Positions 1 through 62,681 of a DNA stretch of 64,000 bases are shown in pieces (position 1 is the stretch's first letter; each line of letters opens with the position of its first letter). The stretch is from the NCBI RefSeq assembly GCF_002775205.1, contig NC_036450.1, forward strand, positions 8,740,479-8,804,478, given 5' to 3'. A program made the position numbers and the translations under genes. The notes below the pieces were generated by a model. The model was given only the letters and a program-made list of their open reading frames with translations. It was not told the origin of the DNA and searched no databases. This stretch comes from Xiphophorus maculatus (taxonomy: Eukaryota > Chordata > Actinopteri > Cyprinodontiformes > Poeciliidae).

Positions 1-3000
1 GCAACAGACCTTCTGCAATCTTGCTAGATTAGGCAACGTGTTTGGAGACATGTCACATTCCTTTTATGTTATGTAAAATGTGAACCTTCTTGTACTAAGC
101 ACTTGTCAATGTTGGGAATTTGCTGAGAGCAATGAAGCAAATGGTTAAAATGATCCACTATGTTGCTTTGCATTGCAACAAAGCTATAAGTCCTATATTT
201 TTATATTTGTAGGTCTGCTTTGGCCAGACTTTTATTTTAAAAACAATAAATAACTTGAGCTGAAGCTTGAAGTAGACCCTGACCATCACACCACCACCAC
301 CATGTCAAACGGGCAAAATGATGTTCTTTTCTGAAATGCTGCTAGTTGAACATTCGCACATTCCACGTTTTGATCCCCAGAGTATTTTTCTAAAGGTCTT
401 GGTCCTATGAAATGGGCCTCTATTCTTTTCATAATAGTTTTTTTGGCTTTATGCTACCCTATTTGTGCAAATTCTCTTTCTTATAGAATCATCAACACTA
501 TTGTTGATTGACACAAGTGGGGCCTGACATACTTTAGATAATCTTTTTTTTTTCTTTACAATCTGCTAAATCATTTAAGTCTTGTAGTAATGTCTTTTTC
601 TGAGATGTTTTTTTTTTTCACCTGCTTCGTCAGACAGGTTCTGTTTATGTGATATAATTAGTTATATTGAGGGCTGTTTCTCAAAAGGATTGCGAATCTA
701 GGACTTAAGATAAAGCCAGGTTTGACATAGCACCATCAGCTCTAGCTTTATCAGTTTCAGGAAGGCCAAACCAGGCGCAGGGGGTGCGACTTTATCAAGA
801 CAGGCATTCAGGTAAATGTGCGTCCACCAATTTCTTCAGCTGACCGTGATATCAATCAGGTTCACTGATGCTACGTCGGTTAAATTGCGTACGCCGTACC
901 TCACATCAAACAAACATCATTGTTTGATGAAGGATTGTGAGGAATTGCAAAGGAAACTGCCGCGACATAATGGATTGATTGATTGAATGCTTAATTACCC
1001 GCAAAAAAAATAAACTTACCCGCAAAAAACTACATTTCCAACCCGTTCTAATTGGATGTGTCATTTGCTCAAATAAACAACTTTAAACTTATAAGTGAAC
1101 AGTCAATATTATAACATGTTAATTTGACAGCAGATTTGTTCATGTCACTCTTTGTTTGTTCCGCATATCGATATAAACAACACAACAGACCGTGATTAAA
1201 TAGAAGAACATTTTGCAGTATTTGGGAAATATGTGGATTAAATGTTGACTAAAGTGCACATGGCTTGTTCTAATAACGTAGAAGGTCCCTAACTACCTCG
1301 CCTTTAATTACCTTTATGGTTAACTTCCTGTTGTAGTTGTGCTTTTGTTTTGAATGGCAATTTATTGTTTAGCTGTTAACGTAAGGGCAGCTTAACGGCA
1401 TCAAAAGACTAAAGATAAATTGTTTATACATTTTTCTTATTAGCAATCCCTTTGATGAAAACAAAAGGTATGTTTATGTGCGTGTATAAAATATTGTGTA
1501 ATTTAAACTGGCTATTGTTTAATATATGCCAAAACTAAAGTTATTTTCTTATTTCTAATCAGATCATCAGATGATGTTACTCGACTGAATACCAAACTGA
1601 GTGATGTTTTAATGCAGGGTGATAGAAAGACCATAACAGACAGATAAGAAAACGAAATCACGGACAAAACATATTGGTTTCTGATCGGCGTAATCGCTGA
1701 CGGAACAAATAAGGCTTCAGGATCAACTAAGCCTGGTCTGGAGCAGGCTAGCTGCACAGAATAAATTGCCATGGTAACCTGCGCTAATGGTTTTGTAAAA
1801 TCCAATCAAGGCTTGAAAATCTCGGCTTAATCGGTTTGTAGTTGTATGAAATAACCCTTTGGACAAAAAAGGTGATTAATCACAGTTAATTCATAATTTA
1901 AAATAGCGTTACATGATTTTTTCTCTTAAATACAATTGTCACTTGATAGCTACTCCTTATAGGTTACTGTTTTTACAGTAAAACAATATAGCACCAGACT
2001 GAAGACTGCTATTAACTCAACCGTCAATTATCTTGATGATTGATTGGATAAAAAAGTGGCGCATTCTGCAGATTTTTAATTAAATTACTTAAGCCTGTTT
2101 TATACAATGTTGGAAATGCATTAATAATTGCAAATAAATCAATCAATTAATTTTTAAAATAAGAAAACAAACATTGTATTTCCAAAATGCAGTTGGTATT
2201 TATTTAGTGTACACTTGATCATTTAAAGCAATCTATTCATCTGCAGCTAAAAAAAAATACTTCTAGCATTAACATGTGAAAAGTTCAGCCCCTTCTGCTT
2301 ACATGACATCTATAATGTTCTGTTGATTATTTTATTTTATCTTGAGTGGAAAATGTCGTTAGTTTTGTACAGTTAGGCTTAATTACTGCTCTGGATATGT
2401 TTTTTTTTCAGCAAATAGCATAGTTTGGAGTCTCTCCAGTTAACGATTATTTGATTAGCTGACAATTATTTCAATACCCAATTAGTCATGAAACAATTAA
2501 TCCAGATTTTAAACCCTAAATTGTATTTAATCACATTAAACATTTAAATATATTAAAAAAGCAAAAACAAAGGAAATTTGTAAGTGGCCAAATACTCAAT
2601 TTATAACACAAACAAAACCACCCGGTGCCATCAATGTGTTTATTTAGGATGTTTTTTTTTTAAATTTCAACATGTCACTGATTACTCATTGAGCAAGTAA
2701 TAAGCACACAAAAAAATCAAGTAGCAAATTAAATAAATCTGTACCAGTTAAGAAGCTGAAGACGATCATTGTCACAGTTTAGCTTTATCATCACTGCAGT
2801 ATCAAGCATAGCTTGGCGGTCATCAGAGTTAAATTCTTCTTTCCCATCACTTTAAAACTCATGTTAAAATTGTTCATATCTCTTGCTCATTCCATTTACA
2901 AATGAGCTTGGTTCTTGTCTCTTGTGATGTAATTGACCCAAATGCACAATAAGCAGAATTAGCTACATTTTTCATCAAAGCTCTTTTTACCAACCTTTTA

Positions 3001-3850
3001 TTCATGCAGTTTTGTAGTAAATATTGATACTTTATTACCTAGCTGTGTTTAATTTAAAGTGTACATTTTATAATAGAAGTACAACAGTAGAGGTAAGCTT
3101 TAAAAATAACTGCACTTTTCCAATAACCGTCTGAGATTGCAATCGGATCAGCATTTTGCCAGTTTGAAAATTTCCAGGTTAAAGGTCTATAAAGGGGAGA
3201 AACTGGTTCTTCTAATTAGCACATTTCAACATCCTGCCCTGCCTCATTCCTTGCTAATCTGTTGGCCTCTTTTGTTGACAGTGCAGTAGTAATTGAGTGG
3301 AGCAGAGCATGGTGAAGCAGGACTCATTTTACACTGTTACGGTCTTGTCATTACCGGGTGGAGACGGCTGTGTGGGCTGGCCTGTTTGGGTCCTCACCAT
3401 TTGAAAGCCAGAGAATATAGCGGATGCACTGGGTGGACAGACTGTGTACACCATGAGAAATGAGCGTATGGGCGTATTCCAGATGGTCTCCACTGGCTTA
3501 ACAACCAGTACACCTACTTTGACCTGACTTGCATGATAAATGCTGACATAACATGATTCTTTATTATGAATAATCCCTGTGGATTTAACATGACTTTCGA
3601 CTTATGAGTTTTGAAAGAATAGAAACCCTACTCCAAGAGTACGTTTTACATTTAAAAAAAGTAAACATAGTATATATTGTTAGTAGTAGATACTAGCTCT
3701 TTGTCTGTCTCCTATTATACTGTCATGTCAGTGACAGTTTTAACAAAAATGTAAAAAAAAATAAATAAATAATAAATGTAAATTTTAATAAAATGTACAT
3801 ACACCAGCTTCAGTCTGTTGCAATTTGAGTGTGTAAAAGCAGGTTTTGTA
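1..3850. other. AT-rich intergenic DNA upstream of slc27a4
   Basis: No exon-like open frame bounded by splice sites and no RNA gene was recognised here. The stretch is AT-rich, with homopolymer runs and degraded repeats. One relic near 2425-2520 contains 'taacgattatttgattagc', which resembles the ends of a common teleost hAT-like repeat. A small inverted repeat lies at 904-929 (catcaaacaa and ttgtttgatg around a 6-nt loop). Regions 660-960 and 1560-1860 are less AT-rich and could be old transposon or conserved non-coding DNA, but nothing decides between these. Confidence 0.5.
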
Positions 3851-3859
3851 GTGTCAACC

Positions 3860-4467
3860 TGTCCCCTGCCACTTTTTTCCTGTAAATGGCAGTGATAAAC
3901 TCATCCCGCACGCCGGCGAGCCAAAAAGGAGCAGACCCCTAGCCTGCCGGGCCAACAAGCAGAGCCGCATTTCCTCTCCCACACCGCAGCAAACCCCACC
4001 TCTCCCGGACGAGACGTAATACCATCTCTCTCTCTCTATTGGTCCGCTCAAGCCGTCTGTCAGCGTTTATTCCTGATTCACTGATTTGACACTGACTGAG
4101 GTGGGCGGGCTCCTCTTAGAAAATTATAAGGTCATTTGAATTACGCCTGCTTGTGAACTCACCGGTTACAATGAATCGAAGGATATTATAAATTATTGTG
4201 ATCCTGATGATGATCGTAGGGTCAAAGTCGACGCGTATCGCTCGGGCATTTTCTCAGCAGCAGCAGCGGGAGGTCGTTGCGGGGTTGACCACAGGAGGAG
4301 AGCCCAGTGCGAGCGTCTGCCTGGGTGCGTTTGTCTGAATCTCTATCCAGCCGGAGGGAGCGACCAGGCTGGCCTGTAAGCCGATCAAGGTGGAATCTCC
4401 CACAACGAGTTTCACATTCGGATCGCTGAGCACCTACATGCTGTAGCAGTGAGAGGAAGGGGGCAAG
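3860..4467 (+). promoter_or_regulatory. slc27a4: Probable promoter and non-coding exon 1 of slc27a4
   Basis: This block is clearly richer in G+C and CpG than its surroundings, and contains CpG-bearing strings such as gtcgacgcgtatcg and gcgagcgtctgcc. It ends with a strong 5' splice site, CAAG|GTACGT, with the last exon base at 4467. The first coding exon of slc27a4 begins one base before its ATG at 7351, directly after an acceptor, so a non-coding exon upstream is required. This is the best candidate, about 2.9 kb upstream. A GC-box-like string (gtgggcggg) lies near 4100. The transcription start is not defined by a TATA box and is inferred to lie between about 4100 and 4250. Confidence 0.5.
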
Positions 4468-7350: not shown

Positions 7351-18560
<11,210 letters not shown>

Positions 18561-24020: not shown

Positions 24021-27000
24021 ATGAAGACTACCATGCTCTCTGTCGCCATGGTGATGATGTGTATGACGATGGCGCACTCAGTGAAGCCACAAAAGGATTT
24101 CAACTTGGAAAAGGTAAAACTAACATTTTACTTGTTCTTTAGGGGGTTGTGTTATCTACTATAGTATGTGAGTGTTGTCAGATTTAAGAACAGTTACTGA
24201 TGGGTGACACAAACAAACTGCTATTATTAATAAGGATTAATGTGTGACAACAGGTGTGGAGCGATGCGGGATGATATTCCACGTGGCAGAAAGGGAAATT
24301 GTTTTAAAAGTGTCAATATTTGTTTGCCTTCATTAGATTATTTCAGATTTGTCAAGTATGTCTTTAATACCAAGTTTCCCACAAGATTAAGTTACAAAAC
24401 ATTATGTCTATGTTATTGGGTGTGGGGTGTCTGTCCATCTGTTTAGAAAATACAGCTACAAAAAGATGGCGTGTATGACGAGCTCTGCTCAGAGGCACCT
24501 TGTCATACTGAGAACGCGTCTCTTCACGATGATAAACATCGCTCATCTACATTATTTTTAGTCAGTCTGTTCCACCATCCTTCCTTAAATACTTAACAGT
24601 GCTCCAAGTGTCTACCCACCAAACCTCCTCCACTCCCCTGAGGACAGAGAGCTACTTTGTGACTTGACAAGTTACAAACTACTGAGACTTTCATAATCTT
24701 GTAAACATTTGTAGCCTGTTTTTAAATATTTAGATAATTCATTGGCTCCCTGTAATCCGCTACGGTCATGAACCAAACTGAGACAGTGAGGTTGTGTGAG
24801 GTTAAATCTTCACCTGTAAATGTAAATATTAATCTACTTCCATCAGTACCTTTCTGTATAGCAAGACATGAAACGTAATGCTTAGAAGTGTTAATTTTAT
24901 ATCCTACATCAGGAGTGTCCAAAGTCTCTCATCAAAGGCACGTTTTAGTCCTTTCCCTGGTTCCACACAAGCGGATCAAATGATGGTTCATTAGCCTCTC
25001 CAGATGTTTTTATATGGCTCGCTACCCAGGGTGCCATTCAGTAAAGGGGTGGCATGAGTGCTTAGAAAAATATTAATATTATCTATAATTTTTATTTGCC
25101 TATTGTGATGTCCAGTAAAGGGCACTATGCAGTGGAATACATCAGTTTATATTTAAGTCTGTTTAGTTCCAAACTAAATGTTTATTTCACACTTTTTTTA
25201 TATACTAGACTCTGGACTTCATTTGATCATTTCAAGTTGCAAAATGTTTCATGGACTTTTCACAGTGAAACAGTTTTATATTAAAGATATTTAAATTGTT
25301 AAAATTGTGGAAGCGCAAAGAGTGGATTTTAAATGAATCATTGATTAAGATAAGCCTCAAAATATAGATTAGTAAAATCTAGATTGATTTCTTCTACACC
25401 AGCAGTGTCCAAGTGAAAAGTGAAATAGAACCAAACAATAAAGTACATACTTAAAACTAATGAAGACAAAAAGTATTATTGAAAAGGTATTAACATGGAC
25501 TGAAATGTTTTATTAAGGTTTTCAGATTTTGCATGTATCTCTTGAAAAACTCTCAACAGATATAAGGGCAGCAATCTTGGCATTATATTTGGAAAGAATG
25601 AGCTATAAATCACTTTAAGACCAAGGTTTCCACAGTCCCCAAGATTTTAGGTGAAGGTGAGATTTCTGAACTGATATTTCGCAGTGTAAGAAAGTTGCAA
25701 ATATTTTATATTAAATCCTATGTTTATTCTAGCGCCTCTAGATTTTGTTTTCATACAGATTTTGAAGCAAACGTTTGTGAATTTGTTAGCTTACATATGC
25801 AAAAGCTGTATTATTTCAACGGAAAACCACTGATTCGAACCAGTTTTCCAGATCAAATAGTTTAATATAGTTTGCCTTTTTTTTCCCTCCCAGATCTCTA
25901 CCTGAAATAAGCTTTATTGTTTTTGTTTGGTTTTGCATTCACATAAAATTTTTATGTTTTCATATGCATTAAGTTTGCAGGTAAATGGTACCGAGTGGGG
26001 CTCGCCTATGACTCTCCAGGCTTTATCCCTTTAAGAGACAAAGTGAAGATCTCCATGGGCGTCATCACAATACTGCCCAGTGGCAGCGTCAACCTCACAA
26101 TGTGGGAAGCTCTGTGAGTTCAAATATGCCAAATAATAAAGGGCAGATAAAGTTAGCCACTGCAAGAAATTACAGATTATTATAAGAACTGATATATAAC
26201 CGGTTAAGTGGATAAACAATTCAGTTCAACTCGTGTCATTTTACTTATAGTGTGATTCACAACTTGTTCGAGATTCAGCGCAAACATCTCACTGTTTTGT
26301 TCTGTGCTTCAGGTCTGTGGCCTGCATTCGTAAATTTTACCAGTATAACAAGACAAGCGTGCCTGGACAGTTCATCTACTTCAGCACCCGTAAGTGGTTT
26401 CTAATTTTACCCTGAGACAAATAAATTGAGGGATTGATGGAAGCTACATAGCTACATCAGCAAGAAATTTCCTTTCACTAACTGGTGCATGAGTCAAAAA
26501 AAAAATCTTTAATGTCATACGTGATGTAAATCAACGAGCTTATTGAGTAAACAATCCAGAGTTGTGTGTGGAAAGACTGAGATGTGTACAGAGATTAAGC
26601 AAGCAAATTCATAAAGCGCAGTGACCAGCGCGTGTTTTTGTGGAGGCTGTTCAGATGCATTGAACACCACAGGAGGTCATTCAAAGAAATATTACAATAT
26701 GACTGAGAAACATTTAAGACTCAGACTCAGATTAAGGAATGTGAGCAAACACACAATGAAAATCTACAAAATAAAAAATGAAGCAGTGTAATGTGATATA
26801 ATTTCCAAATTCAAATAGAAACACAATTTAAATTAGGATTTTTTAAAATACTGAATGTTTACAAATACATAGCTTAATTTGTCTACATTCTTCCTATATT
26901 TCATTTGGGTTTTTTTTTTTTATCTTTTCCTACCACATATATCATAGTGCAAACATTCATATGATATTTTCAGATGTAATAAGTCATACCACCACATACG

Positions 27001-27537
27001 AAACAAAAAACAAGGAATTTTTGTTTTATTTTTCCAAGACATTTTCAAGAAATTCATTGTTGTTTTTCTGCTCAGGCCATAACATGGTGAAGGACGTCAC
27101 TGTTGTGGACACAAACTACACTGAGTATGCTGTGGTTCTCAAATACAAGAATTTTGACAGAGAATACACACAGGTGGCGCTTTACGGTGAGACCCAAAGA
27201 GACAATTTAATTTGACAATTTTGTTTTTTTCGGCTCCTGTGCTGAGTAAATGTAGCTCACCTACATCTGCTTGAACAGGTCGCTCACCGAGAACCAAAGT
27301 ACAAGTCCTGCAGAAGTTTAAGGCCTTTGCTTTGTCCCGTGGTTTCCCCAGAGCATCTATTCTGACCCCTCCTCCAGCAGGTAACTATTGATTAAAAATC
27401 CTCTAAATATCTGCAGTTTAAGTACAATAATATGAGTAATTTTTCTTAAGTAATGGGTGGAAATGTCCTGTTAACTTTATTGTTTTGTTTGTATTGTCTC
27501 ATCAACAGACAACTGTCCAGCATCAGGATCTGGATAA
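24021..27537 (+). CDS. Secreted lipocalin, PTGDS/LCN15-like, lacking catalytic Cys
   Basis: This is a small secreted beta-barrel carrier of hydrophobic ligands; the ligand is unknown. Exons: 24021-24113, 25974-26113, 26313-26389, 27076-27186, 27279-27380, 27509-27537, joining to 183 residues, a normal lipocalin length. Residues 1-20 form a signal peptide. The lipocalin motif FAGKWY is at 32-37, VVDTNYTEYAVV is the second conserved region, and Cys82-Cys177 should form the usual disulfide. Sequons are NLT, NKT and NYT. The residue aligning with the catalytic Cys of prostaglandin D synthase is Gly60 (ISMGVIT), so synthase activity is unlikely. The position of A1M Cys34 is Ser45. An untranslated last exon starts at 27629, three bases of 3' UTR being on the stop exon, the classic lipocalin layout. 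The AATAAA is at 27757. LCN15-like and PTGDS-like labels are both possible. Confidence 0.85.
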
Positions 27538-29430: not shown

Positions 29431-31823
29431 ATGCAAAGAGTTGTGTTTCTGGTGCCTCTACTGGTTGTTGGATCGATATGGACCCACCAGATGGATCCAG
29501 TGATGGAAAATAGTCCAGTAACACCAATGGAGAACTTTGATTTTGAGCAGGTGAGTGTTTAAGACAACAGTTCTTCTTTTCCCCCATTTTAGCCATCAGT
29601 TTATGCAAAACTTTTTTTTCTCACCAACTAAAACATTTAGAATCTCCTGTGTGAAAATGTTTATGTTGATCTCATCCGTTCACCTGCAGATGGCTGGACG
29701 TAGATTGACTGTGTATTTTTTTCTACAGTTTACAGGACGATGGTATGAAATGGCTGTGCTGTCCACCTGTCCTCACTACATGCAGCGCAAGAAGAGAAAC
29801 CCTGTCATTGTGGCGCTAGACCTGACACATGTTCCTACTCAGCATAACTTTACAATGACTTCCTCCTCCTTCAAGTCAGTTTCTCATGTGTTGTAAACTG
29901 CAAAAGATGTAAGTTTTTGTGTGATCTACAACATGTTTCTTCTTTCAGGAATGGCACATGTATGGAGGCTTTGACAGTTTATAGCTTGACCAGCACTACA
30001 GGGCGATTCTTTCACCATATTGCAAGTATATTTCTACCTTTCTCTACATCCTATCTGTCATATAAATTAGTTTTTACATAGCATACTACCACATTCAGTA
30101 GCAGTAACTCTGTAGTTAGTTTTGTGAGACTGTTACATAAGATAAGTTACATTGCTATGGAAGAATTTTGACTCAATTTCCTTTAGAGGTTTGCTTCAAT
30201 TTCTTATTGTTTGAAGTCTGTAATTTAGCATTTCAGTCAGACTAAGGTCTGAACTTTGACTGGTACATTTCAAACATCTTGATTGTTTCCTTTGTCAGCC
30301 TTTCTCTACAGATTTGCTGTCGTGTCTCTGGTCTTTGTGCTGTTGGTGATTGAGTTTCACCACATTTGACTCTGGAACATTTTGACATATTGATTAAATC
30401 TCGATCAGCTCAACAGCTGCAAGGTGCTTTGGTCCTGTCTCTGCAAAACAGACCTGATTTATCCCTCCACCATCATTGTGTTTTGCAGTTTTTCTAATAA
30501 ATCTGCACTGAGAGCATGACATTGGTCTTTATGGCCAAATCTTTCCTTTGGTACTACCTGTCCTGTGGACACTGGTCCAGAAGTCTTATGGTTCATTCAG
30601 ATGCAGCTTTGCAAACCTGATTTGAATTGCTCTGTTCATTTTAGAAAACAACTTGAGAACTGGGGTCTGTAGAGCATGCAACAGGGTACAGATTGGGATT
30701 TTTGCATTTTCTGACCTTGGGGTAAACTTGCAGGGGTTTCCTCTCCTGGGGAGATGGACAGCTGTGTTAAAGTAATTGGCTATCTTTGCTGTCACTGTGT
30801 TAACACACACCTCATGCTCCAAACCAGCAAACCTCCAAAACTCTGTTTCACAGAGTAGTTACACTCCTAAATACACTGTAAACAGTGAATGTGCTTAAGT
30901 TTTCACACATGGCTTTCTTTTAAATCTTCTTAGTTTAATAAATAAGAACACTTTAGAATCTGTTTTATGCTTTGTCCATTTATGATTTAAACAATTTTAG
31001 AATCTGGTAAAGACCTCAAGGTTTTGCTGTTTCTAGTATGTAACGTACTTTCTTTTTTCAGTGAAAATCTATGAAAGGGTTCCTCAGATATCAAATGAAA
31101 ATTCCTCTCTGCAGGATTTGGAGCCGATGTTGATTCCTTCGTGATTCACACAAACTATGATGAGTATGCTCTGATGCTGCAGCTGAGCACAGAGCATCCA
31201 TCGGGAAATAAAACCACCACAGTTAAGCTTTATGGTAAGTCAACAGAGGTTTCTAATCTGACTCTGACTGAGTGACCAGGAGACAAACCAGGATTCAATA
31301 ACCAAATCACAACTTCAGTTAAATCCAGAGATTAAGGTTTAAAACAAACTTTTCATTTTTATCAACGTGTTTCTTTTGACTTGAAGTGAAATCAGTGTTT
31401 TTGAGTCGTCCAGTCAGCGTCACAACTTTGAATATGTTTGGTTTGTGTTGTATTCAATATGATGCCTACCTTTTCATTTTAATTTTATTTTTAAAAAATA
31501 GCCAGAAAGGAGCTAAATCCAAACATTTTTCTCCCATCTGATTCATCAGTAGGAGAGATAGCTGAACAGCAGCCATCTTGGGCTTAAAAAAGAAACAAGA
31601 TGCAACATGAGAATTTGTCATTCAAATAATCTCCTATGTAAGAGTAACTTAGCGACAAATGTCTCCTTCTCAGGTCGAACTATGAGTGTTAGTCCTCCTG
31701 TTGTTGATAAATTTAAAGCGCTCATCAGACATCATGAAATGAGTGAAGAGGCTGCCATCATGAACCAACACAAAGGTACTTCTGACATCTGGTCATTTTC
31801 AAACATAAAATAGCTTGAAAATG

Positions 31824-31876
<53 letters not shown>

Positions 31877-32300
31877 TTGTAGTCATGTTAGCATGATTTA
31901 TTAATTATCAAGCTATGTTTTTATATTCTGGCCATTTTAAGATTTTACATTTTCACTGGATTAGAAGTATTGTCTCAGATTTGTTAAAGCACTTTCAAAA
32001 AGAAGTATTATTATTATTTTATTTCTGTTTTTATTTTTCTGATAGAAAAACATTAATGTTTTCATTTAAAGAGATTTAGTTTTTTTTCTGTCTTTCCAGG
32101 TGACTGTTTTCCAGGTAAACAAATGATGGAGGAAACTGCTGACCATCAGGTAGCTGTGTCCCACTATGCTGAACCAGCTGATGACTCTATTTGACATAAG
32201 AATAATCATAAATAACAGGTAACGTGTTTGTTTTCAGGCTTCTGTTCCTCAGATCTCCAAACAGAATATTACTACAGAGAAAAAGCAAAGTGATGTCTGA
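29431..32300 (+). CDS. Alpha-1-microglobulin-only AMBP paralogue (no bikunin)
   Basis: Exons: 29431-29550, 29729-29874, 29949-30025, 31115-31234, 31674-31775, 32100-32149, 32238-32300, joining to 225 residues. Residues 1-20 look like a signal peptide. The lipocalin motif FTGRWY is at 41-46, and STCP carries Cys54, equivalent to the free reactive Cys34 of A1M. Cys93 (NGTC) and Cys191 (GDCFPG) form the expected disulfide. VIHTNYDEYALM is the A1M hallmark. After the GDC exon the gene does not run on to an RVRR site and Kunitz exons. A last exon encodes about 20 residues (ASVPQISKQNITTEKKQSDV) and stops. Nothing Kunitz-like follows before the next gene. Lysines equivalent to A1M Lys92 and Lys118 are Arg and Ser/Leu; Lys130 remains. 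Sequons: NFT, NGT, NKT, NIT. Probably a secreted plasma lipocalin. A tandem duplicate of ambp with the same intron phases. Confidence 0.88.
31825..31877 (+). repeat. (TTA)n microsatellite
   Basis: About 17 pure TTA/ATT units lie in the intron after the exon at 31674-31775 of the A1M-only gene, starting roughly 50 bp past its donor. Confidence 0.9.
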
Positions 32301-32776
32301 CCAGGTGACAAATAACTCATTGTTAGAAAATTTATTTGGTGGTGCCCATCTTTATACTCTGGTTGTGAAACCTTCATTCAAACAGCAAGCGGTAACAGAA
32401 AATAAGTAGAGGGAAAAGGACAATGGTCAACCCACACAGTAAAAGCCTTGTCATAGATTGGATTTCTGATGCAGCTCACAGTCTCTCCAACTTTATGTTT
32501 TTGCATCTTTTAATATACATGTCCACTGTGTTTACTTTAGATTTTCTCCCAATTTTAATTTAGAAAGAGCCAAAGCGGTCAACAATACCACTGTGCTGAA
32601 GCAGCTAAATTAATTTGCAGTCCTTGTCTGTGACATAACACAATTACACAATGATTTTTAAAAAAATGTATTGTATTTTATTTTGTTGTTATTACTAGTA
32701 TTATTTTTGTAGTAGTAATAGCGTGCATAAATGATCCTAATGTGTCAAAATTCTAATTGTCAAACTAAAGACGAAA

Positions 32777-32782
32777 AATAAA
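32777..32782 (+). other. Polyadenylation signal of the A1M-only gene
   Basis: AATAAA lies 477 nt after the stop codon at 32300, on the same strand, and is the first clear canonical hexamer downstream. Confidence 0.5.
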
Positions 32783-34522
32783 GAACTACTCGTTTGTATG
32801 ATATCTGCCTGCTGAACTCTAAATCCTTTTTATATTTGTAATATAACTCAATGCCACATTGTTCTGAGGAGCTGGTTGAGTAGAAGTTCAACTTCAACTT
32901 CATACGTTGAGCTACTGAGTTTGAGCATGTTGGGGTATAGCCAGTGTAGTGCTGCTTTAAACATACTTTGGCAGGCAGATGGATTGTGTTTGCAGGGAGA
33001 CACCAAAGTGTAATTTAATGTCTGTATAAATCCAGCTGTTCAGTGAATAAATCTCATGTTAAGGAACAAACAGCATCATAAAGACCAAGGAACACAGCAG
33101 AAAGAGTGAAGCTGGGTTAGATTGGAAAACGATATTCCAGACTAGATGCAACGAAGCACACACTATATGGGAGCTGCAGAGATCTTAAGATCAGGTTGCA
33201 GAATCTATCAACAATCATGCGTTCTGCAAACCTGTCTTTGGTGGAAGAGTGGTGAGAAAAAAGCCACTGATAAAAGGAAATGGTAAGAAGTGTTTACAGA
33301 TTGACAGCAGCCATGTAGGAAACATAGCAGAATAGAGGAAGAAGTAGTTCTGGTCATTTGAGGCCAAACTTGAGCTTTAGGATCCTCATATTATTACGTT
33401 TGGCGGAAAATTAACTTTCACTTCACTCCTAACACACTACCTCCACAATGACAAATGGTGGCAGCATGGTGCTGTAGATATGTTTTTCTTCAGCAGGGAC
33501 AGGGAAATGCATGCCACACGTTTCAGAATTTAACAACTGTGAAAACTCTTAATCCTTTTCATTCCCCTTCACACTTATGTACTACTTTGTGTTGTTTAGC
33601 GTACATAAAATCCCAATAAACCAGTTTGGTGTTGCATAATAATAAAATGCAAAACAGTTCCAAGGGTTGTGATAAGTTTGTGTTGTTACATTGGAGCTTT
33701 GACAAAGTAAAGATTTCAAAAGGCATTGAGCAGAACTGACCTGATATGACCAGCATGTTCACTTACTGATCAGTAGGAGGAGCTGTGACAAATGGAAATG
33801 AACTTTTCTCGCCTTAAAAGATGAACCCATAATGTAGAAATCCCAATATGTTAAAACTCAACAAACCAACTCATGAACAAACTCCTGATCACTTTAAAAC
33901 CAGTAAAAAAAAAAGTATTGTCATTTATTTAAAAATGTATCTGTACACTTTTGTCTGTTTGCAGTTATGCTAAATGATTCAATGAAAGCAGACATACTGT
34001 ATTACATGTTTGTATACTATATACAAACATTTTTCCAAACGTGGGAACTATTACATAAGAACATTTCCAGATTTGTGCCTCTAGATGTGACAGTACTGTC
34101 AAATATATATAAAAAACAAAGTTTCTCTGCATCCCAAAACCAAAGTTTAACCATGCATGAAAATCCTGGATCCTGTTTATTTAAAAAATCCCAATTAAAT
34201 AAAAAAAATTTCCTTGTTTCTGTTTTTGCTCATATTACAGCACATATTGATCTGCCAGTACTGCAGCATCTCTGAAGTCCAATGTTTGAGTGGTTCACTG
34301 CCCCTTGTGATAAATCAAACTACAGCAGAGATAAACAGAGTGACAGAACTTTGCTCCTTTACTTGTTTGCATTTTTTGGAAGCTGGGCTGTGGGAGTGAT
34401 TATATCCTGAGTCCTTTACAATTTAATGTGCGGTCCCGTTCTCAGCAGTAGAACAGGGCTGTCATTGTGCTGCACACCTACAGGACAAGGTTCGACAAAA
34501 GTGGACACAAAGTTCGGACAAG
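32783..34522. other. Spacer between the A1M-only gene and ambp
   Basis: Contains the Tc1-like relic at 33060-33760 and AT-rich sequence. No Kunitz-type cysteine pattern was found, so the missing bikunin part of the upstream gene is not simply displaced here. The ambp promoter should lie at the right end. 'tgattatatcctgag' (about 34397-34411) is a TATA-like candidate about 120 bp before the ATG. Confidence 0.5.
33060..33760. mobile_element. Tc1-like transposon relic
   Basis: Blocks in order match degraded fish Tc1-like copies: 'aaagaccaaggaacacagca', 'gaggagctgcagagatc'-like text (gggagctgcagagatctt), 'ggtggaagagtggtgagaaa', 'tggtggcagcatggtgctg' and 'cttcagcagggacagggaa'. The tail 'cacacttatgtactactttg' and 'aaaatcccaataaa' fits the same family. 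Many frameshifts and stops. It separates the A1M-only gene from ambp. Confidence 0.6.
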
Positions 34523-37500
34523 ATGCAAAAATCTGTGGCTTTGGTTTCTTTGCTGTTGCTGGGATGGATAGGGACCGTCCAAGGACTCCCTGTTCTCCCA
34601 GATCCTCTTTACAGCACACAGGAGAACTTTGATCTGAGCAAGGTGAGAGGAGAACCTTTTAAGTTTCGCAAGATTAGTTGAATCATCGAGTATAACAGCG
34701 AGAAATAAAACTGTTTAATACTAAAGGTAAAAGCAAGGGAGCACATGTAGAGCTATTAGTTCTTGTTTTAGTGTTTCTTGCCTTGCATGTCCTATATAAT
34801 ACTTAAGGGATATTTTATATATGTATATAAAAGCATAAAGGCATTAAAATCAAAAATGTCATAACTTTTTTAAAGTACAAACTATGCATAGAGAAGAGGC
34901 TGAATGGCTAAAACAATGTTTTATAGTTTGGTTGCATTTTAAAAATCTTTCAAAAATATCTCAAGTGTGTTTAAACTTTCTGTATGTGCAATGTTTTTTA
35001 TTTTTATGACAATCCTGTTAACTCTTCATGACAGTTTTTGGGAACATGGTACGATGTTGCAAAGGCGAGTAGATCTCCATACATGCAGCGCTACAGCGGA
35101 GAACGGGCCATTGGCAAGCTGGTGCTGCAGAAAGGCAGTACGGATGAAAAGCTCAAAATGACCCGAACTGTTCTCAGGTTGGATTACAAATACTGCCATA
35201 TTTCAGACATAAAGGAGAAGACTCCTAAAATATCAATCAGCAAATGTTCATCACTTGTTCACTTTTCAATGTCTTCTATGAATTGGAAATTTGTATTTAA
35301 AGTCACATGAAGTCAGAAAAAACACACATGCAAATTAACAGATTGCAAAACATTTGAATTTCATCTGCTTGATGATCAAGGCCAAAATCAATGTTCGCCA
35401 AGGCTTTCAAAAGTTCAAACTGGGCCACAGTCAAGTATAATCGATGTATTAAAAAAAACAAAACAAAAAAAACAATCTTGGCTCAAGTCAAATATTTCGA
35501 CATCCAACTTTTTGGATGTCGAAATATAAAAAGTTGGATGTCGATATATATTCTGGTTATTTTATATTTCACCACACACACATATTCTTGGAAATTTCTA
35601 AGATAAGCCACAAAGCAGAACGTATGAATTTACCATTGCTTTACATTTGAAATGATGCTCTCTGTCACGGGTGTCAAACTCATTTGGGCCAAATCAAAAT
35701 CATGAATGTCCTCAAAATTTTGTGGAAGGAGATATTGATTAAATCCATTAACAAATTGCAAAAATATTCATTTATGGCCGACCCTGCATTCGATGAATAC
35801 TTCTTGAAATAAAATAATATTGAACATCATTTCTCATTGATGTTATGTGGTAGTATACAGATAAAAACTGCTTTGATTTAGTGATTAAAAAAAATGGGAA
35901 ACATTTTTTGACAAGACAGACTATCATGTCAATCCTCTCTTAACTTTCAAGAATAAAGTCGCAATAAAAACAAGGAAAACAACGATTCAAAAAAACAGAT
36001 GCTACATTTGATAATCACAGATCACTCTTAGAATCACACAATTTAATAAAACAAAATATTTAAGCAAAATTCAGCAATTGGGCTCACTCAGAGGTTTCTG
36101 TGTTGGGACATTAGCAAGCATTACAAATGGTACTTTTCTGGAATTTGATTACGAATAGTTGATTTGATTTGATCACTTGAATTAAAGTGTATTTTGTGCA
36201 GACGGGGAACATGTCTGGAGAAAACTGGGGATTATGAGGTGACCTCCACACCAGGACGATTTTTCTACCATGTTGCAAGTATGTTGTCTCACTTTTGCTC
36301 TCTGTTAATTTGGTGATTGTCCTCTGATGATCACCTGAGGAAGTAACTCTTGTTGGACCTTTTCTCCCTCTCTGCAGAGTGGGGAGCCGATGTGGATGCT
36401 TATGTTGTTCACACCAACTACAACGAGTACGCCATTGTGATTATGAGCAAGCAGAAATCATCAGGAGACAAGAGCATCTCACTCAAGCTTTACAGTGAGT
36501 TTTCACCTCCTGTAGCGTCACCTTTGGAAAACAGATGACGGAAATTATTGACACATTCTTAACCAAATACTCTTTAATGAAGCGCAAACGTGAACAGACG
36601 TAGGATGTGGATTTCCTGTGGTACATTTTTAACAATACTTCAAAGATAACATGTTGAAAATTAAGAAAGGTGTTTGTCAAATGGAGGTTAACCCTCCTGT
36701 TATGTTGCGGGTCATATTGATCCGTTTTAAAGTAAAATGTAAAAAAAAAAAAAAAAATAGTTGGAAGTATGTTTTTCTGCATGAAACTTTTTCTATTTGT
36801 CTTAATAGGTGCCCTCTACATATAAATTGAAAATGGTTCATTTTACACATTTGCACCACTCTGCGTCTACATTTTACATAGATACTGTTCAGGTCAATTT
36901 GACCCAGCAGTCCAGTTGAAGGGTAAAAAGGGTAAAAAAAAAAAAAAAGTCCAATTCTATTTGTTTCCTTGCAACTATGAACCATATTTCACCACACACA
37001 CACAAACACCTTAATATAATATCAAGATTACAACCAAAATTAAAAATATATCAAAAATCAAAACAATATTTTTTGATATCTAAAGGGCTTTAAAGAAAAT
37101 CTAAATTTCTGTTAATAACAGTATCAACTTTAATGTCAGTGTTCAGCAAGAAAACAAATCCCACATTTTATTCTTCAGATGAGGATAAAATTTAGCTTTC
37201 AGCCTGACTGCGATCCGTCTGGGCTATAACAGTGCAGGTGGTGATTTTGGTAAAAAAAATAAATAAATAAATAAAATAAAAAAATACTTGTCATGTGTTC
37301 TCTGTAGGTCGGACAAAGTCTGTGAGACCAACAATCCTGGAGGACTTTAAAACTCTGGCCAGAGAGCAAGGAATGGGTGACGACGCCATTTACGTTAGAA
37401 AGGACAAAGGTAGACAAACACATTTGCATGCAAACATATGCTAAATAACAAAAACAATATTTTATGAGTCATATAGTACTTGTCCCAACAGAGACTGTTT

Positions 37501-39151
37501 TAAAATCAGTACACATTGTCTATATGTGATTCAGTCATATATGAAAAAGGTTTCCATTTTCTCTGTGTGCAGGCGACTGTGTTCCTGGAGAGATGGTGGC
37601 CGAGCCGACGCCTCAGCCTGAGCCTAAGGTAGAACCAATCATCCACAACCATTGGGCAATATGGAGTTAAAGTTTTACCACTCTATTTTGTGGCACTATT
37701 GTAAAAATGATTAAAGTGACAGTGGTGAAAAATTGTAAAAAAAATCCCGACAATACAGACAGTTTTTTTGATTTTTTAACGTTACTTGGAATTTATCATG
37801 ATAACGTCAAATCAAAATCTCTGTATAAGAAATGTATTACTATAAATTATAGGATAAATGCCCACCCTTAATAATCAGATGGTTGAAACCAGATCTTCAC
37901 ATCCACTGTAGTAACAAACATATAACATGTTTTTCCATCACTGTTTAACTTTAAACTGGACAGCATTTAATCTTTTATGAGAGTTAGGAAAACCAAAATA
38001 TTTTCTATTTTCTAAATATAGAAATAATGTGTTTTTGATGATTTGTTTGTATTCAGTAGCTTTAAAATACTAGTAAAGTGTATGTAATACAAAATTTTAA
38101 CCACCGGGTTAGGGAAAAATATGACTGAAAAGGTCTTCACAATACCTGATATATTGTATTCCAGGGGGAAAAAATATATGCTCTGTGCTCTTAGCAATGG
38201 CTTACTTTTTGAAATCTAAAAACATGCAGTTGCATGGTAAATAGATAATATGATGATTTTGACATAGAAACATACATAATCAGTTTGCTTTGCAACCTTT
38301 CTGTTGATGCTGACTAAGTTTTGTCTCTCCATGTTGCAGCGGGTGAGGAGAAATATTGTCTCTTCTTTGACTTTTGACGACACAGAGGGCTCTGGTATCG
38401 AAGCACCACTGTTCAATGGAACCAGTGAGAGATGAGCTACATTAAAACATCACTTTAGTACCTTTATAATATCTAAAGGAGTCACACGTCATCTCTGTCT
38501 GTCTTTACAGTGGCATGCAACGCCTCTCCGGACACCGGACCGTGTTTCGGGTTGTTAAATCGCTACTTCTACAACTCTTCCTCAATGAGTTGCGAGCTCT
38601 TCCAGTATGGCGGCTGTTTAGGCAATCAGAACAACTTTGTGACAGAGAGAGAGTGTCTGCAGAGATGCCGCACAGAGGGTGAGAAGATATAACGTTCTGC
38701 TTGGAATATGTCATTGGTATTTGACCAATAAGAGGGATTTAATCGAGGTTCAACTTATTTGATTCTCCAGCTGTGTGCCGTCTTCCCATGGCTCCTCAGC
38801 CCTGCACGGGTCAACCAGCTATCTGGGTCTTCGACCCATCCACTGGAGTGTGCATGCCCTACAAACAGGGCTTCTGTCAGCCCAATGCTAACAAGTTCTA
38901 CACTAAGGCAGAGTGTGAAGAGTACTGCGGGGTGATGAAAGACGGTGAGGCAGTTTGGAGATCATCCCAGATACACGTTTTGCAGTAAATAAGCTGAAGA
39001 TGTTAATCTTTGTGCAATTTGGTAGAATTTGCATTCACTCATGAACAATACAACAGAAACCCAATGAAAGTGTATGTCATAAAGTAAAAGCCTTATTCAG
39101 AACATTTAATGTATTTCTCTGTTTGCAGACGGCCTGCTGATGTCAAACTGA
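34523..39151 (+). CDS. ambp: Alpha-1-microglobulin/bikunin precursor (AMBP)
   Basis: Liver-type plasma precursor, cleaved into lipocalin A1M and the Kunitz inhibitor bikunin of inter-alpha-inhibitor. Exons: 34523-34642, 35035-35177, 36202-36278, 36378-36494, 37308-37409, 37573-37628, 38340-38424, 38511-38678, 38771-38944, 39129-39151; 354 residues (human 352). Signal peptide 1-21; lipocalin motif FLGTWY 41-46; Cys92 and Cys189 form the lipocalin disulfide; [10 protein letters not shown] is conserved. The furin-type site RVRR is at 206-209. EGSG with Ser223 fits the chondroitin-sulfate attachment of bikunin. Kunitz 1 spans 236-286 and Kunitz 2 292-342, each with all six cysteines. Oddities: Ser54 replaces the reactive A1M Cys34, and the P1 residues are Phe (Kunitz 1) and Thr (Kunitz 2). 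Third and last gene of the lipocalin row, 2.2 kb after the A1M-only paralogue. Confidence 0.96.
35492..35527. repeat. Perfect 16-bp hairpin with 4-nt loop
   Basis: The arm ATATTTCGACATCCAA (35492-35507) is complementary to 35512-35527. A partial third copy (aaaagttggatgtcgata) follows at once, so the sequence reads forward, back and back again. Lies in the ambp intron between the exons at 35035-35177 and 36202-36278. Confidence 0.8.
35664..35930. mobile_element. Degraded interspersed repeat
   Basis: The string 'cacgggtgtcaaactcattt' followed by 'gggccaaatc' resembles a common vertebrate/teleost hAT-like repeat end. Boundaries are uncertain. It lies in an ambp intron. Similar degraded text (caggagtgtccaaagtctc) occurs near 24911 in the first lipocalin gene. 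Confidence 0.3.
36687..36960. mobile_element. Short interspersed repeat of the 'ccctcctgttatgttgcggg' type
   Basis: Opens with 'aaccctcctgttatgttgcg' and contains 'gatccgttttaaagtaaaa'. Towards the right edge 'gtcaatttgacccagcagtc' mirrors part of the left edge. This resembles an abundant teleost MITE. It lies in the ambp intron after the exon ending 36494 and carries two A runs. Confidence 0.45.
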
Positions 39152-59651: not shown

Positions 59652-59990
59652 TCACCGGGCCCCAGAGGAATACTTGGCCTTGGTGATGAGGTATAGCACA
59701 ATGTCCTGGTGGCCCCCGAAGGCGGCAATATGTAAAGCGCTCCACCCTTCCCTGTTAGCCAGTCGGATGTCTGCGCCGAACTTCACCAGCAGCTTCACGA
59801 GCTCCAGGTTGCCGTCGATGACGGACTGGTGGAGCGCTGTCTGTCCCTCCGGCCCGAAGGAGTTGACGTTGAACTCGCAGTTTGTCATGTTCTGCAGCAG
59901 CGAGTGCAGCTCCTTTGTGTTCCCCTTCTTCACTGCCTCCTGGAAGACCCTCTGCGGCGCGGAGCAAGTCGACACATCCGCCTGGCTCAT
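59652..59990 (-). CDS. nrarp: Notch-regulated ankyrin repeat protein
   Basis: Nrarp is a small Notch target that binds the Notch intracellular domain/RBPJ complex and lowers its level, and it also supports LEF1 in Wnt signalling. The gene is intronless, with 112 residues and a stop at 59652-59654. Residues from NMTNCEFNVNSFGPEGQTAL onward are almost identical to human NRARP. Two ankyrin repeats follow: GQTALHQSVIDGNLELVKLL, then the repeat opening WSALHIAAFGGHQDIVLYL. The N-terminus MSQADVSTCSAPQRVFQEAV lacks two residues found in human (114 aa), as in other fish. The ATG has a strong Kozak context (GCCACCATGA on the minus strand). Fish have two nrarp genes; the sequence looks like the 'a' type, but I cannot prove this. 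It lies alone, tail towards the ambp cluster. Confidence 0.97.
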   Translation of the reverse strand: MSQADVSTCSAPQRVFQEAVKKGNTKELHSLLQNMTNCEFNVNSFGPEGQTALHQSVIDGNLELVKLLVKFGADIRLANREGWSALHIAAFGGHQDIVLYLITKAKYSSGAR

Positions 59991-60900
59991 GGTGGCAACT
60001 CGCTGAAGTTTGAGGGGGAACGAGAAATAATCCTGCCTCGGCTCTAAGACTGTGTCGAGCGTCTCTGGTCTGGTAACAGTGCCACAGTTATGCTGGATTA
60101 CACCCAGTTTTAAGGCACTTTTAACGGTGGAAGATCACTGGATATATCCCAAAAAAGGACAAGAGGGAAAACGGCACACCTGGTGTGCAAAAACGTTAAT
60201 ATTTGAGAAATCCTAAATCCCCTAAAACATCAAAGTGTCAAGGAGCGCTCCGGGGGTCTCTGGATGTAATTTTTCTTCTCTAGTAGCAGCAGCAGCAGCA
60301 GCAGGTAGCCTGGACAGTGAGATGAAGAAGAGACTCCTCCGATTTCACTGGGGAGACTGGAAGTATGACCACAATCACCAAAGGGCAGCCTCCTCGTTGT
60401 TGGGTCCCCGTCGGCTTTCCTCCAACGGTCCAACCAGCTTCCTGGCTATATGTGGCTGCTCATGTGGCCATGCAGACGTCTGAGAGAGACAAAAGTAATT
60501 TTCAAAAAAAAAAAAGAAGAAAAATCACAAAAGATGTCCGCATGTATCCAAATTCCTTACACACATTCCGCCACATCCAAGAATGAGACAGCGCGACAGA
60601 GGAGAGGAGAGCTCTGTCCGCACAGGTTTACGCACGGATCTCCCCAGGCTTGCGTCCCGCAGCCAAACTGCAATCCGCTGACTTACCTGCGTCAGATGGA
60701 CGGGTCCGTGTTGTGGCGACAGATAAACCACTTTTGCGGGGCCCCGGGATGCGTGTGTTCCTCCTCCTCGCGGTCCTTATGAGTCTCTGCCCTGCGCCGT
60801 GCTCCGGGGGAATAGTTTTACGCGTCCTTTATTTGCATGACAATGCCTTCCCGAAGAATCAACTGTGGAGGAATGGGCGGAGAAGCGCGGAGGTTATAGG
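59991..60900 (-). promoter_or_regulatory. nrarp: nrarp 5' UTR and promoter region
   Basis: This block is CpG-richer than the surroundings and directly precedes nrarp. An octamer ATTTGCAT (60831-60838; ATGCAAAT on the nrarp strand, continuing AAAGG) could serve POU factors or, with its AT-rich flank, as a weak TATA-like element. The transcription start cannot be fixed from sequence. Confidence 0.4.
60284..60304 (-). repeat. (CTG)n repeat in the nrarp 5' flank
   Basis: About seven AGC/GCA units on the + strand (CTG on the nrarp strand) lie 295 bp upstream of the nrarp ATG, probably within its 5' UTR. Confidence 0.8.
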
Positions 60901-60976
60901 CTGCCGGCTGGGTTAGAGGGAGGGATCAGAGCCTTGCCTGTGTGTCTGTGGGGTGGGCGGCGTGGTTTTCAGCAGG

Positions 60977-61163
<187 letters not shown>

Positions 61164-62681
61164 GCTGGTGGTGGGGGGTTGGAGGTCCAAATAATGTTGC
61201 CACAGAATGTTTCTGTCTTGAGCTCAATATCTGATATCCTGCTTGCCACGCAGTGCAGCTAATTGAAAAGAGTGTCTCAATAAGAACCGATGAGGTATTA
61301 TGGTCAACATGCAGGGCCGGATAAAGATTATATGGGGTCCTAAGACTGGATACCACAGCTCAACTTATTTCTCATTTTAATCATCCGTACTTGAATGTCT
61401 CATTGTATGATAAACGTAAGTAAAAGTACTATGGTTTCTTGGTGTTATACGAACATTTACTGGACAAATGTACAACATGATGTGTTGTTTTTTTTTTAAA
61501 CAGAACTGCAACGATTATTTTTCGCTACTACTAAGGCCGCACATTGATTATGATTGTAAATCAGTTCAATACATGACAGCTATTTATTATTTGATAATAA
61601 TACATATATATGAACCAAGAAATATAGAACACCTGCTAAATTTAGAAGTTCAGTGGATCCCAACCTTTTGTGGTTTAGTATTTTGCAAATTCCCCCTATT
61701 TCTATTTTTTTTTCTTTCTTTTTTTTATGGAAAGAAACTCAAAAATTAGCTGGAGAAAAGTTGCCCACTTGCAGCTATTTTCTCAAATACTTGAAAGAAA
61801 ATGTAATGTAATGTGCATTTTAAAATCGACAGGTGGCGCTCTTTTAGTTATCCGATCATAGCTATCTGCATCTTATTGTTATCAAAAACATTTCGCAGCC
61901 ACAAAATTGTTAGCGAGGGAAAAGCGCTGCTGCAGACTTTCAGCCAGGCGACTGGAAGTTCCCAACACAACTACACTATGCTTCAACCCATTTAATCTGT
62001 CACTTTGGGTCGCACTTTAAAAAAGCAGTTTTCAAAGTGAAACTTGGTTCCTGTGTCTATCATGATTATTTCCTGTCCCTGATACTGCCATCACCCTGTT
62101 GCATCCTGAGAATGGTGTGCTCAAATTCAACACAATAAGGCTTGTGACAAAATATAAACGTTAGTTCTTATCGCCTCCTTTTGCTTTATTCTTGCTGTTT
62201 TATCAATATGACCAGATTTGTGTAGCGTACAGCACCTGTACGCCCCTAAACTGTGGCTCTCTTGACGATTGTATTATATCATTTCCATTTTCGGATGGTT
62301 TATAGTGCTCAATAAGATTTTAGTAATTTTGCATATTATTTCAGAACCAAAACCTGCTTTAGGCTTCTGTGCTGTTTGCTGTATTCATTGATCATCATGA
62401 ATCTGTATTTTAATGTTACAAGCCTCTACTTATTCAGCAGTAGATTTATGAATGGACGTTTTATTTAGGGACACGAGAGTTGAGAATAAAAACTGCAAAA
62501 ATAATTTTCAAAAATGTATCATTTTCTTTTCCCTTCAAAATAATGCTTTTTTTTTTTTTTGGTAAGTGTAATGCGAGAAATATGGGGATGACCGGTGCAT
62601 ATTTCGGCACATGCTTGGTTCCAGGGGGTCCAAACGGCACAGAAGTTTGGATTTATCAGTGTGTATGGGCAGGAACCAAAA

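Follow-up and report, generated by a model that had tools for sequence, protein, structure and literature searches.

A bikunin-free A1M-type gene next to ambp in the fish Xiphophorus maculatus

In the vertebrates described, A1M and bikunin are kept in one precursor, AMBP. According to the passages of a 2021 review cited here, this fusion is kept in every species where AMBP has been described, A1M is believed to assist the synthesis of bikunin, and the reason for the co-synthesis is largely unknown; the legend of its figure gives C34, C72, K118, Y132 and C169 as conserved in all 12 species shown, plaice included (PMC7965949). A mutant of human A1M, C34S, has reduced reductase and radical-scavenging activity in the cited passage of another paper (PMC8389303). 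Here we describe two adjacent genes, g1 and g2, in a 64-kb stretch of DNA of the fish Xiphophorus maculatus (contig NC_036450.1, positions 8,740,479 to 8,804,478; referred to as the window). A tandem cluster of three lipocalins in this window holds g1, a bikunin-free gene of A1M type that is under purifying selection, and g2; no other A1M-bikunin precursor than g2 was found among the best-scored candidates of the genome. Of note is the stand-alone A1M gene beside an AMBP that naturally carries a C34S-type change. An original prediction, made from the sequence, had read the pair as a division of labour after duplication, with one redox-type A1M and one bikunin carrier.

Among the matches listed in a search of the open-licence literature there was no report of a fish A1M paralogue that lacks bikunin. 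The cited portions of two papers contain 'AMBP-like' entries in fish tables (PMC4598134, PMC11346364), so genes of this kind may already be annotated in databases, and the matching passages of two others mention AMBP or bikunin expression in passing, in cod and milkfish (PMC2830189, PMC5033585).

The tandem lipocalins and the bikunin exons

All three lipocalin genes lie in tandem on the forward strand of the window. The gene models are based on hand-chosen GT-AG borders that yield open frames, and the features are as follows (positions are those of the window).

29431-32300, forward: g1, the A1M-only gene; 7 coding exons, 225 aa, GT-AG borders, open frame
29431-29550, 29729-29874, 29949-30025, 31115-31234, 31674-31775, 32100-32149, 32238-32300, forward: coding exons of g1
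29768-29770, forward: g1 codon TGT for Cys54, in STCP, aligned with human A1M Cys34
32238-32300, forward: g1 exon 7, a short tail ending in TGA; it follows the same phase-0 intron as its g2 counterpart, the exon with cleavage site and connector
32301-34522, forward: stretch between g1 and g2, no Kunitz remnant detected by Kunitz profile search
34523-39151, forward: g2, ambp; 10 coding exons, 354 aa, GT-AG borders, open frame
34523-34642, 35035-35177, 36202-36278, 36378-36494, 37308-37409, 37573-37628, 38340-38424, 38511-38678, 38771-38944, 39129-39151, forward: coding exons of g2
35074-35076, forward: g2 codon TCT for Ser54, in SRSP, aligned with human A1M Cys34
38340-38351, forward: RVRR cleavage site at the start of g2 exon 7; the connector behind it contains an EGSG motif
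38511-38944, forward: the two bikunin Kunitz domains of g2, exons 8 and 9, six Cys each
24021-27537, forward: g0, the third tandem lipocalin, PTGDS/A1M-like, 6 coding exons, 183 aa; context, outside the pair

The Pfam Lipocalin profile (cut-off 23 bits) matches g1 with 64 bits (E 2.3e-17), g2 with 94.7 bits (E 7.5e-27) and g0 with 63.1 bits (E 4.4e-17). Among solved structures, the best match of g1 is human A1M (AMBP) at 100.8 bits, followed by PTGDS at 51 and C8G at 50; g2 scores 159.9 bits with human A1M and 143.3 with human bikunin; and g0 scores 75.9 bits with A1M and 66.4 with PTGDS. The prediction that bikunin is present in g2 and absent from g1 agrees with both the gene models and Pfam, which finds two Kunitz stretches in g2 (E 2e-29) and none in g1 or g0. 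Two adjacent intact genes with the motif HTNY(D/N)EYA were also found as predicted (HTNYDEYA in g1, HTNYNEYA in g2), but a near copy, DTNYTEYA, occurs in g0. Likewise g1 and g2 do share their intron phases (0,2,1,1,1,0, followed in g2 by 1,1,1), but this is weaker evidence than had been stated since the first five phases are common to g0 as well; only the phase-0 intron 6 is restricted to g1 and g2 among the three. The first exons of g1 and g2 are of the same length and can be aligned, and g0 has no loop-1 Cys. A comparison of the g1 and g2 regions at the DNA level gave 8 short matches besides the 101-base overlap of the compared stretches, and Rfam gave 0 matches at the gathering score. Intron 2 of g2 contains an inverted repeat (35492-35549, 29 nt, 86% complementary, arms without a gap).

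The g2 gene carries the A1M domain, the cleavage site and two Kunitz domains in one frame, i.e. the arrangement by which AMBP is recognised. In human bikunin the Ser of the EGSG motif carries chondroitin sulfate. The residue that follows the second Cys of the two Kunitz domains is Phe and Thr, respectively, in g2 and in a fish cDNA described below, versus Met and Arg in human bikunin (1bik). A trypsin-inhibitory bikunin has Arg as the P1 residue of its second Kunitz domain, a position occupied by Thr in both fish sequences. By this general rule the residues suggest that g2 bikunin is not a classical trypsin inhibitor, and its protease target probably differs from that of human bikunin.

No bikunin follows the lipocalin in g1. 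A search for a Kunitz remnant behind it (hmmsearch --max with a profile of 6 Kunitz sequences, six frames of 32151-34522) gave a best score of 1.0 bit, as compared to 85.6 and 85.5 bits in the g2 control. As no remnant was detected up to g2, we classify g1 as an A1M paralogue and not as an AMBP.

The search for further copies covered the genome (704 Mb, 101 contigs) with three queries, g2 A1M plus linker, g2 bikunin and g1, which gave 10, 37 and 11 matches, respectively. No other A1M/AMBP locus, and no second ambp that could supply Cys and bikunin together, was found among the best-scored candidates (9, 40 and 12). Apart from g1 and g2 exons, the A1M queries matched a single distant lipocalin frame that has no introns; 3 of the 37 bikunin matches are g2 exons, and the remaining 34, at 48% identity or less, are taken as other Kunitz genes. 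The intronless lipocalin-like frame (contig C5, region of 10755003-10755575; 1426-1995 of locus L034; 189 aa) has weak similarity to g1, g2 and C8G and was discounted as a candidate copy of g1, as were two loci on contigs C8 and C12 that look like rbp4.

Key residues, a fish cDNA and the order of events

For the comparison of functional residues, the human A1M numbering was fixed so that N17, Y22, C34, K69, C72, K92, N96, K118, H123, K130, Y132 and C169 match their letters. The predicted contrast at Cys34 is borne out by the alignment, which places Cys54 of g1 and Ser54 of g2 at this position. There are three Cys residues in g1 (54, 93, 191), the latter two aligning with human C72 and C169, and only two in the A1M part of g2 (92, 189), which form the disulfide pair; there is thus no substitute for Cys34 in g2. 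Although g2 lacks the free loop-1 Cys of AMBP, we treat Cys34 as a functional residue that is not required for AMBP gene identity. The contrast at K118 stands as well: g2 has Lys138 at this position, and in g1 there is no Lys between EYA and the GNK loop, therefore K118 is absent whatever the gap placement. On the other hand, the Lys claimed for g2 at K92 resulted from a numbering error. The lysine of AKWG corresponds to human K94 (Arg in g1), and at K92 itself we find Ile113 in g1 and Val112 in g2, so that neither gene has this residue. The human set of C34 with K92, K118 and K130 is therefore represented in g1 by C34 and K130, with K92 and K118 lost, and the complementary features are cut down to C34 in g1 versus K118 and bikunin in g2. 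K130, Y132, C72 and C169 are kept by both genes, Y22 and H123 are lost by both, and K69 is replaced by Asn in g1 and by Arg in g2. Each gene has lost one of the residues that are invariant in the 12 species of the review. There are four N-glycosylation sequons in g1 and none in the A1M part of g2.

A fish sequence that bears on the history of the pair came from a scan of bacterial and archaeal genomes, in which 1 locus was confirmed out of 61 pattern matches. The locus (L025; NZ_JASBQQ010000017.1, 1-4002) is filed under Defluviimonas aestuarii, but it is a chimera in which three fish cDNAs are joined: one of a fibrinogen chain (identified by Pfam), an antisense frame, presumably of apolipoprotein A-I, and a complete intronless AMBP of 356 aa whose first few residues may derive from the adjoining cDNA. 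It is probably a contamination of the bacterial assembly by fish liver-type cDNAs. A search with g1 returned only the known AMBP contig from the contaminated assembly, and the same contig was the single match (1 of 394) among the genomes of the family of D. aestuarii; scans of viral contigs gave no confirmed relative. The AMBP of this cDNA shares 71-72% identity with g2 and 43% with g1. It has STC with Cys34 (STCT at the SRSP site of g2) as well as K118, the residue at K92 is Val, and a VKR cleavage site and the two Kunitz domains are present, so a fish bikunin carrier with Cys34 exists. This runs counter to the idea of complementary loss, which would not hold if a related fish sequence carried Cys and bikunin together, and it is precisely the sequence closest to g2 that does so.

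In the cited parts of an earlier phylogenetic study, fish AMBP forms a single monophyletic group with which two fish PTGDS clades are grouped (PMC8420045). In our eight-sequence tree g1 and g2 are joined with ultrafast bootstrap (UFBoot) values of 72-78 and Shimodaira-Hasegawa-like approximate likelihood ratio (SH-aLRT) values of 82-89. The best nine-sequence tree has the form (g1,(g2,fish cDNA)); the node that joins g1 has UFBoot 78-81 and SH-aLRT 87-92, and the pair of g2 and the cDNA has UFBoot 80-86 and SH-aLRT 89-90. Human A1M comes next in both trees (75-79 with eight sequences, 68-69 with nine). In two reduced sequence sets UFBoot of the fish group was 88 and 48, and that of the g2-cDNA pair fell to 61 and 56. 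A grouping of g1 with g0 was rejected by the approximately unbiased (AU) test (p below 0.001). Bit scores as well as the best trees place g1 closer to A1M than to PTGDS, C8G, LCN15 or g0, and it shares 43% identity with each of g2 and the cDNA, compared with 31% for human A1M and 29% for human C8G. Among the nine aligned sequences, 13 positions are exclusive to g1, g2 and the cDNA (at one of them the human chain has already ended), as compared to 9 for g2, the cDNA and human A1M and 3 for g1 and human A1M.

Synonymous distances (dS) over 195 codons are 1.27 between g1 and g2, 1.42 between g1 and the cDNA and 0.64 between g2 and the cDNA; of 400 codon bootstraps, 399 gave a larger distance for g1-g2 than for g2-cDNA (undefined values taken as larger). 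Pairwise omega values of 0.26-0.66 (g1-g2) and 0.19-0.55 (g1-cDNA) indicate purifying selection in the comparisons with g1, even though g1 is the faster gene, with 27 unique changes versus 11 in g2 (chi2 6.7) and 24 versus 10 against the cDNA. The protein trees favour a duplication before the split of g2 and the cDNA without rejecting a later one, hence they are not decisive alone; judged by the synonymous distances, the duplication is most likely older than this split. If so, and given that the cDNA keeps Cys34, the loss of Cys34 from g2 would be later, which counts against a simple division of labour. It probably followed the split from the cDNA and took Thr33 along (STC to SRS). Of the original proposal, the present-day contrast in Cys and bikunin stands, and the best trees do join g1 with fish AMBP as proposed; losses on sister branches after one duplication are supported neither by the cDNA nor by dS.

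Elsewhere in the window, exon-like frames of one gene lie upstream of the lipocalins (about 9690-18560), which we take to resemble a fatty-acid transport protein of the slc27a family. An open frame on the reverse strand (59655-60134) encodes a protein with ankyrin repeats according to Pfam, presumably similar to NRARP, and a long CT/GA repeat (about 60920-61190) gives spurious open frames on both strands.

Possible histories and functions of the pair

The history that we favour, together with the functions it implies, is in our estimate slightly more probable than its denial. The g1 gene would have arisen from fish ambp by an old tandem duplication, which either stopped between the A1M and the bikunin exons or was followed by a disappearance of the bikunin exons with no detected trace. 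The cited passage of the review describes intron 6 of AMBP as an unstable hotspot (PMC7965949), so a duplication breaking off there would leave g1 bikunin-free from birth; the other origin, a full copy whose bikunin decayed, has marginal support. Afterwards g1 would have changed about twice as fast, losing K118 and keeping the loop-1 Cys, and g2 would have replaced Thr33-Cys34 by Arg-Ser after its split from the fish that supplied the cDNA. The product of g1 may be a secreted lipocalin whose one unpaired Cys could still reduce, scavenge or form disulfide-linked complexes. The A1M half of g2 may chiefly assist bikunin in folding and secretion and bind ligands independently of Cys (K118 and K130 are kept); as A1M is thought to aid bikunin synthesis, it may persist for that reason. 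A functional split, if real, would be late and stepwise, and the two losses probably happened at different times, not as one split of labour. The sharper proposal, that g1 is a free-standing redox A1M and that g2 has an A1M half lacking thiol chemistry and retained within the precursor to help bikunin fold and be secreted, is tentative and we would not bet on it.

Several points speak against this history. Firstly, human A1M and the fish cDNA were the only further AMBP sequences in the trees, and the AU test does not reject a placement of g1 outside fish and human AMBP (p 0.13-0.27, or 0.30-0.34 without the cDNA), with human A1M (p 0.10-0.18), with C8G (p 0.07-0.22), with the cDNA (p 0.14-0.44) and with g2 alone, i.e. 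a duplication after the split of the cDNA, which fits the original prediction (p 0.06-0.16). Secondly, the single-residue matches of g1 to human A1M are barely above those to C8G (20 versus 15). Thirdly, PQISKQN in the tail of g1 can be aligned with PQRVKRN in the fish cDNA, but the likeness of the tail to the AMBP cleavage region is marginal (5000 shuffles; p 0.017 for the cDNA, 0.358 for g2, 0.048 jointly). Finally, Ser54 of g2 is known from one assembly, and the human heme model may not apply to either gene because K92 and H123, both named for heme, are missing in both.

The most durable competitor, which we regard as possible though distinctly less probable than the favoured history, is divergence without any division of labour: g1 would have taken up a new ligand with its Cys as a leftover, and the Cys of g2 would have drifted away in a fast-changing loop. 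The faster evolution of g1 is in line with this idea, and so are loop 1, which differs strongly among g1, g2 and the cDNA, the loss of Y22, K92 and H123 from both genes, the loop changes of g1 and its four sequons where the A1M part of g2 has none. Drift is harder to reconcile with the fact that g1, which changes faster than the other two fish A1M sequences, has exactly the STCP of human A1M, and with the purifying selection seen in comparisons with g1.

It is unlikely, in our view, that g1 never had a bikunin part and descends from an older lipocalin, similar to A1M or C8G, which is more ancient than the fusion or diverged ahead of it. C8G is disulfide-bonded to C8 alpha, and under this explanation Cys54 of g1 could likewise serve a disulfide to a partner protein; C8G and LCN15 have a Cys in the same alignment column. 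The failure to detect a Kunitz remnant behind g1 and the AU results, by which a position of g1 outside AMBP or with C8G is not rejected, fit here too, and C8G and AMBP are reported to share their exon structure in the cited part of PMC8420045. The best tree nevertheless puts g1 with fish AMBP, and its higher identity to g2 and the cDNA than to human A1M or C8G, the A1M score at twice that of C8G, the positions exclusive to the three fish sequences and the alignable first exons of g1 and g2 all point away from such an origin.

Still less probable, to the point that we would be surprised by it, is the scheme in which the sister branches of a single duplication suffered complementary losses, leaving one redox A1M and one bikunin carrier. 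Today Cys is found only in g1, and bikunin and K118 only in g2, and a duplication after the split of the cDNA, which would fit this scheme, is not rejected on protein by the AU test. However, Cys34, K118 and bikunin occur side by side in the fish cDNA that is nearest to g2, dS between g1 and g2 is about twice that between g2 and the cDNA, K92 is absent from both genes, and plaice is among the species with C34 and K118 conserved in the figure legend of PMC7965949. Transcripts running from g1 exon 6 into g2 exon 7 on the same strand, about 6 kb apart and both in phase 0, could give a Cys-bearing A1M-bikunin, but the phase match is expected from homology alone and g1 has its own stop exon, and AATAAA/ATTAAA sites lie at 32777 and beyond, so we give this idea hardly any credence.

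Comparison with known systems

At first sight g2 is an ordinary AMBP. Like the genes of human and other vertebrates it has ten coding exons, a lipocalin domain, an RVRR site and two Kunitz domains, as well as the disulfide Cys residues, K118, K130 and Y132. It differs by Ser in place of Cys34, by the missing Y22, K92 and H123, and by the Kunitz residues Phe and Thr, which are Met and Arg in human bikunin. In other words, g2 naturally carries the change that weakened human A1M in the laboratory.

The g1 gene resembles A1M in the loop-1 Cys within STCP, in HTNYDEYA, KLYGR and a C-terminus of the form GDC.PG, in C72 and C169 and in the phase-0 intron 6. Unlike A1M it is encoded alone, with neither a cleavage site nor bikunin, it has four N-glycosylation sequons, and it is devoid of K118, K92, K69, H123 and Y22. 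With C8G it shares the lipocalin fold and a Cys at the same loop position, but its score with C8G is half of its A1M score. The PTGDS-like lipocalins of fish, represented here by g0, are lipocalins too and provide its tandem neighbour, but the grouping of g1 with g0 was rejected, as described above.

The locus offers a natural experiment on the reason for producing A1M and bikunin jointly. A stand-alone A1M next to a naturally C34S AMBP separates, with no engineering, two questions: the role of A1M without bikunin, and what bikunin requires of an A1M that has no thiol. If the sharper proposal given above is true, this fish has uncoupled two proteins that the described vertebrates keep in one precursor.

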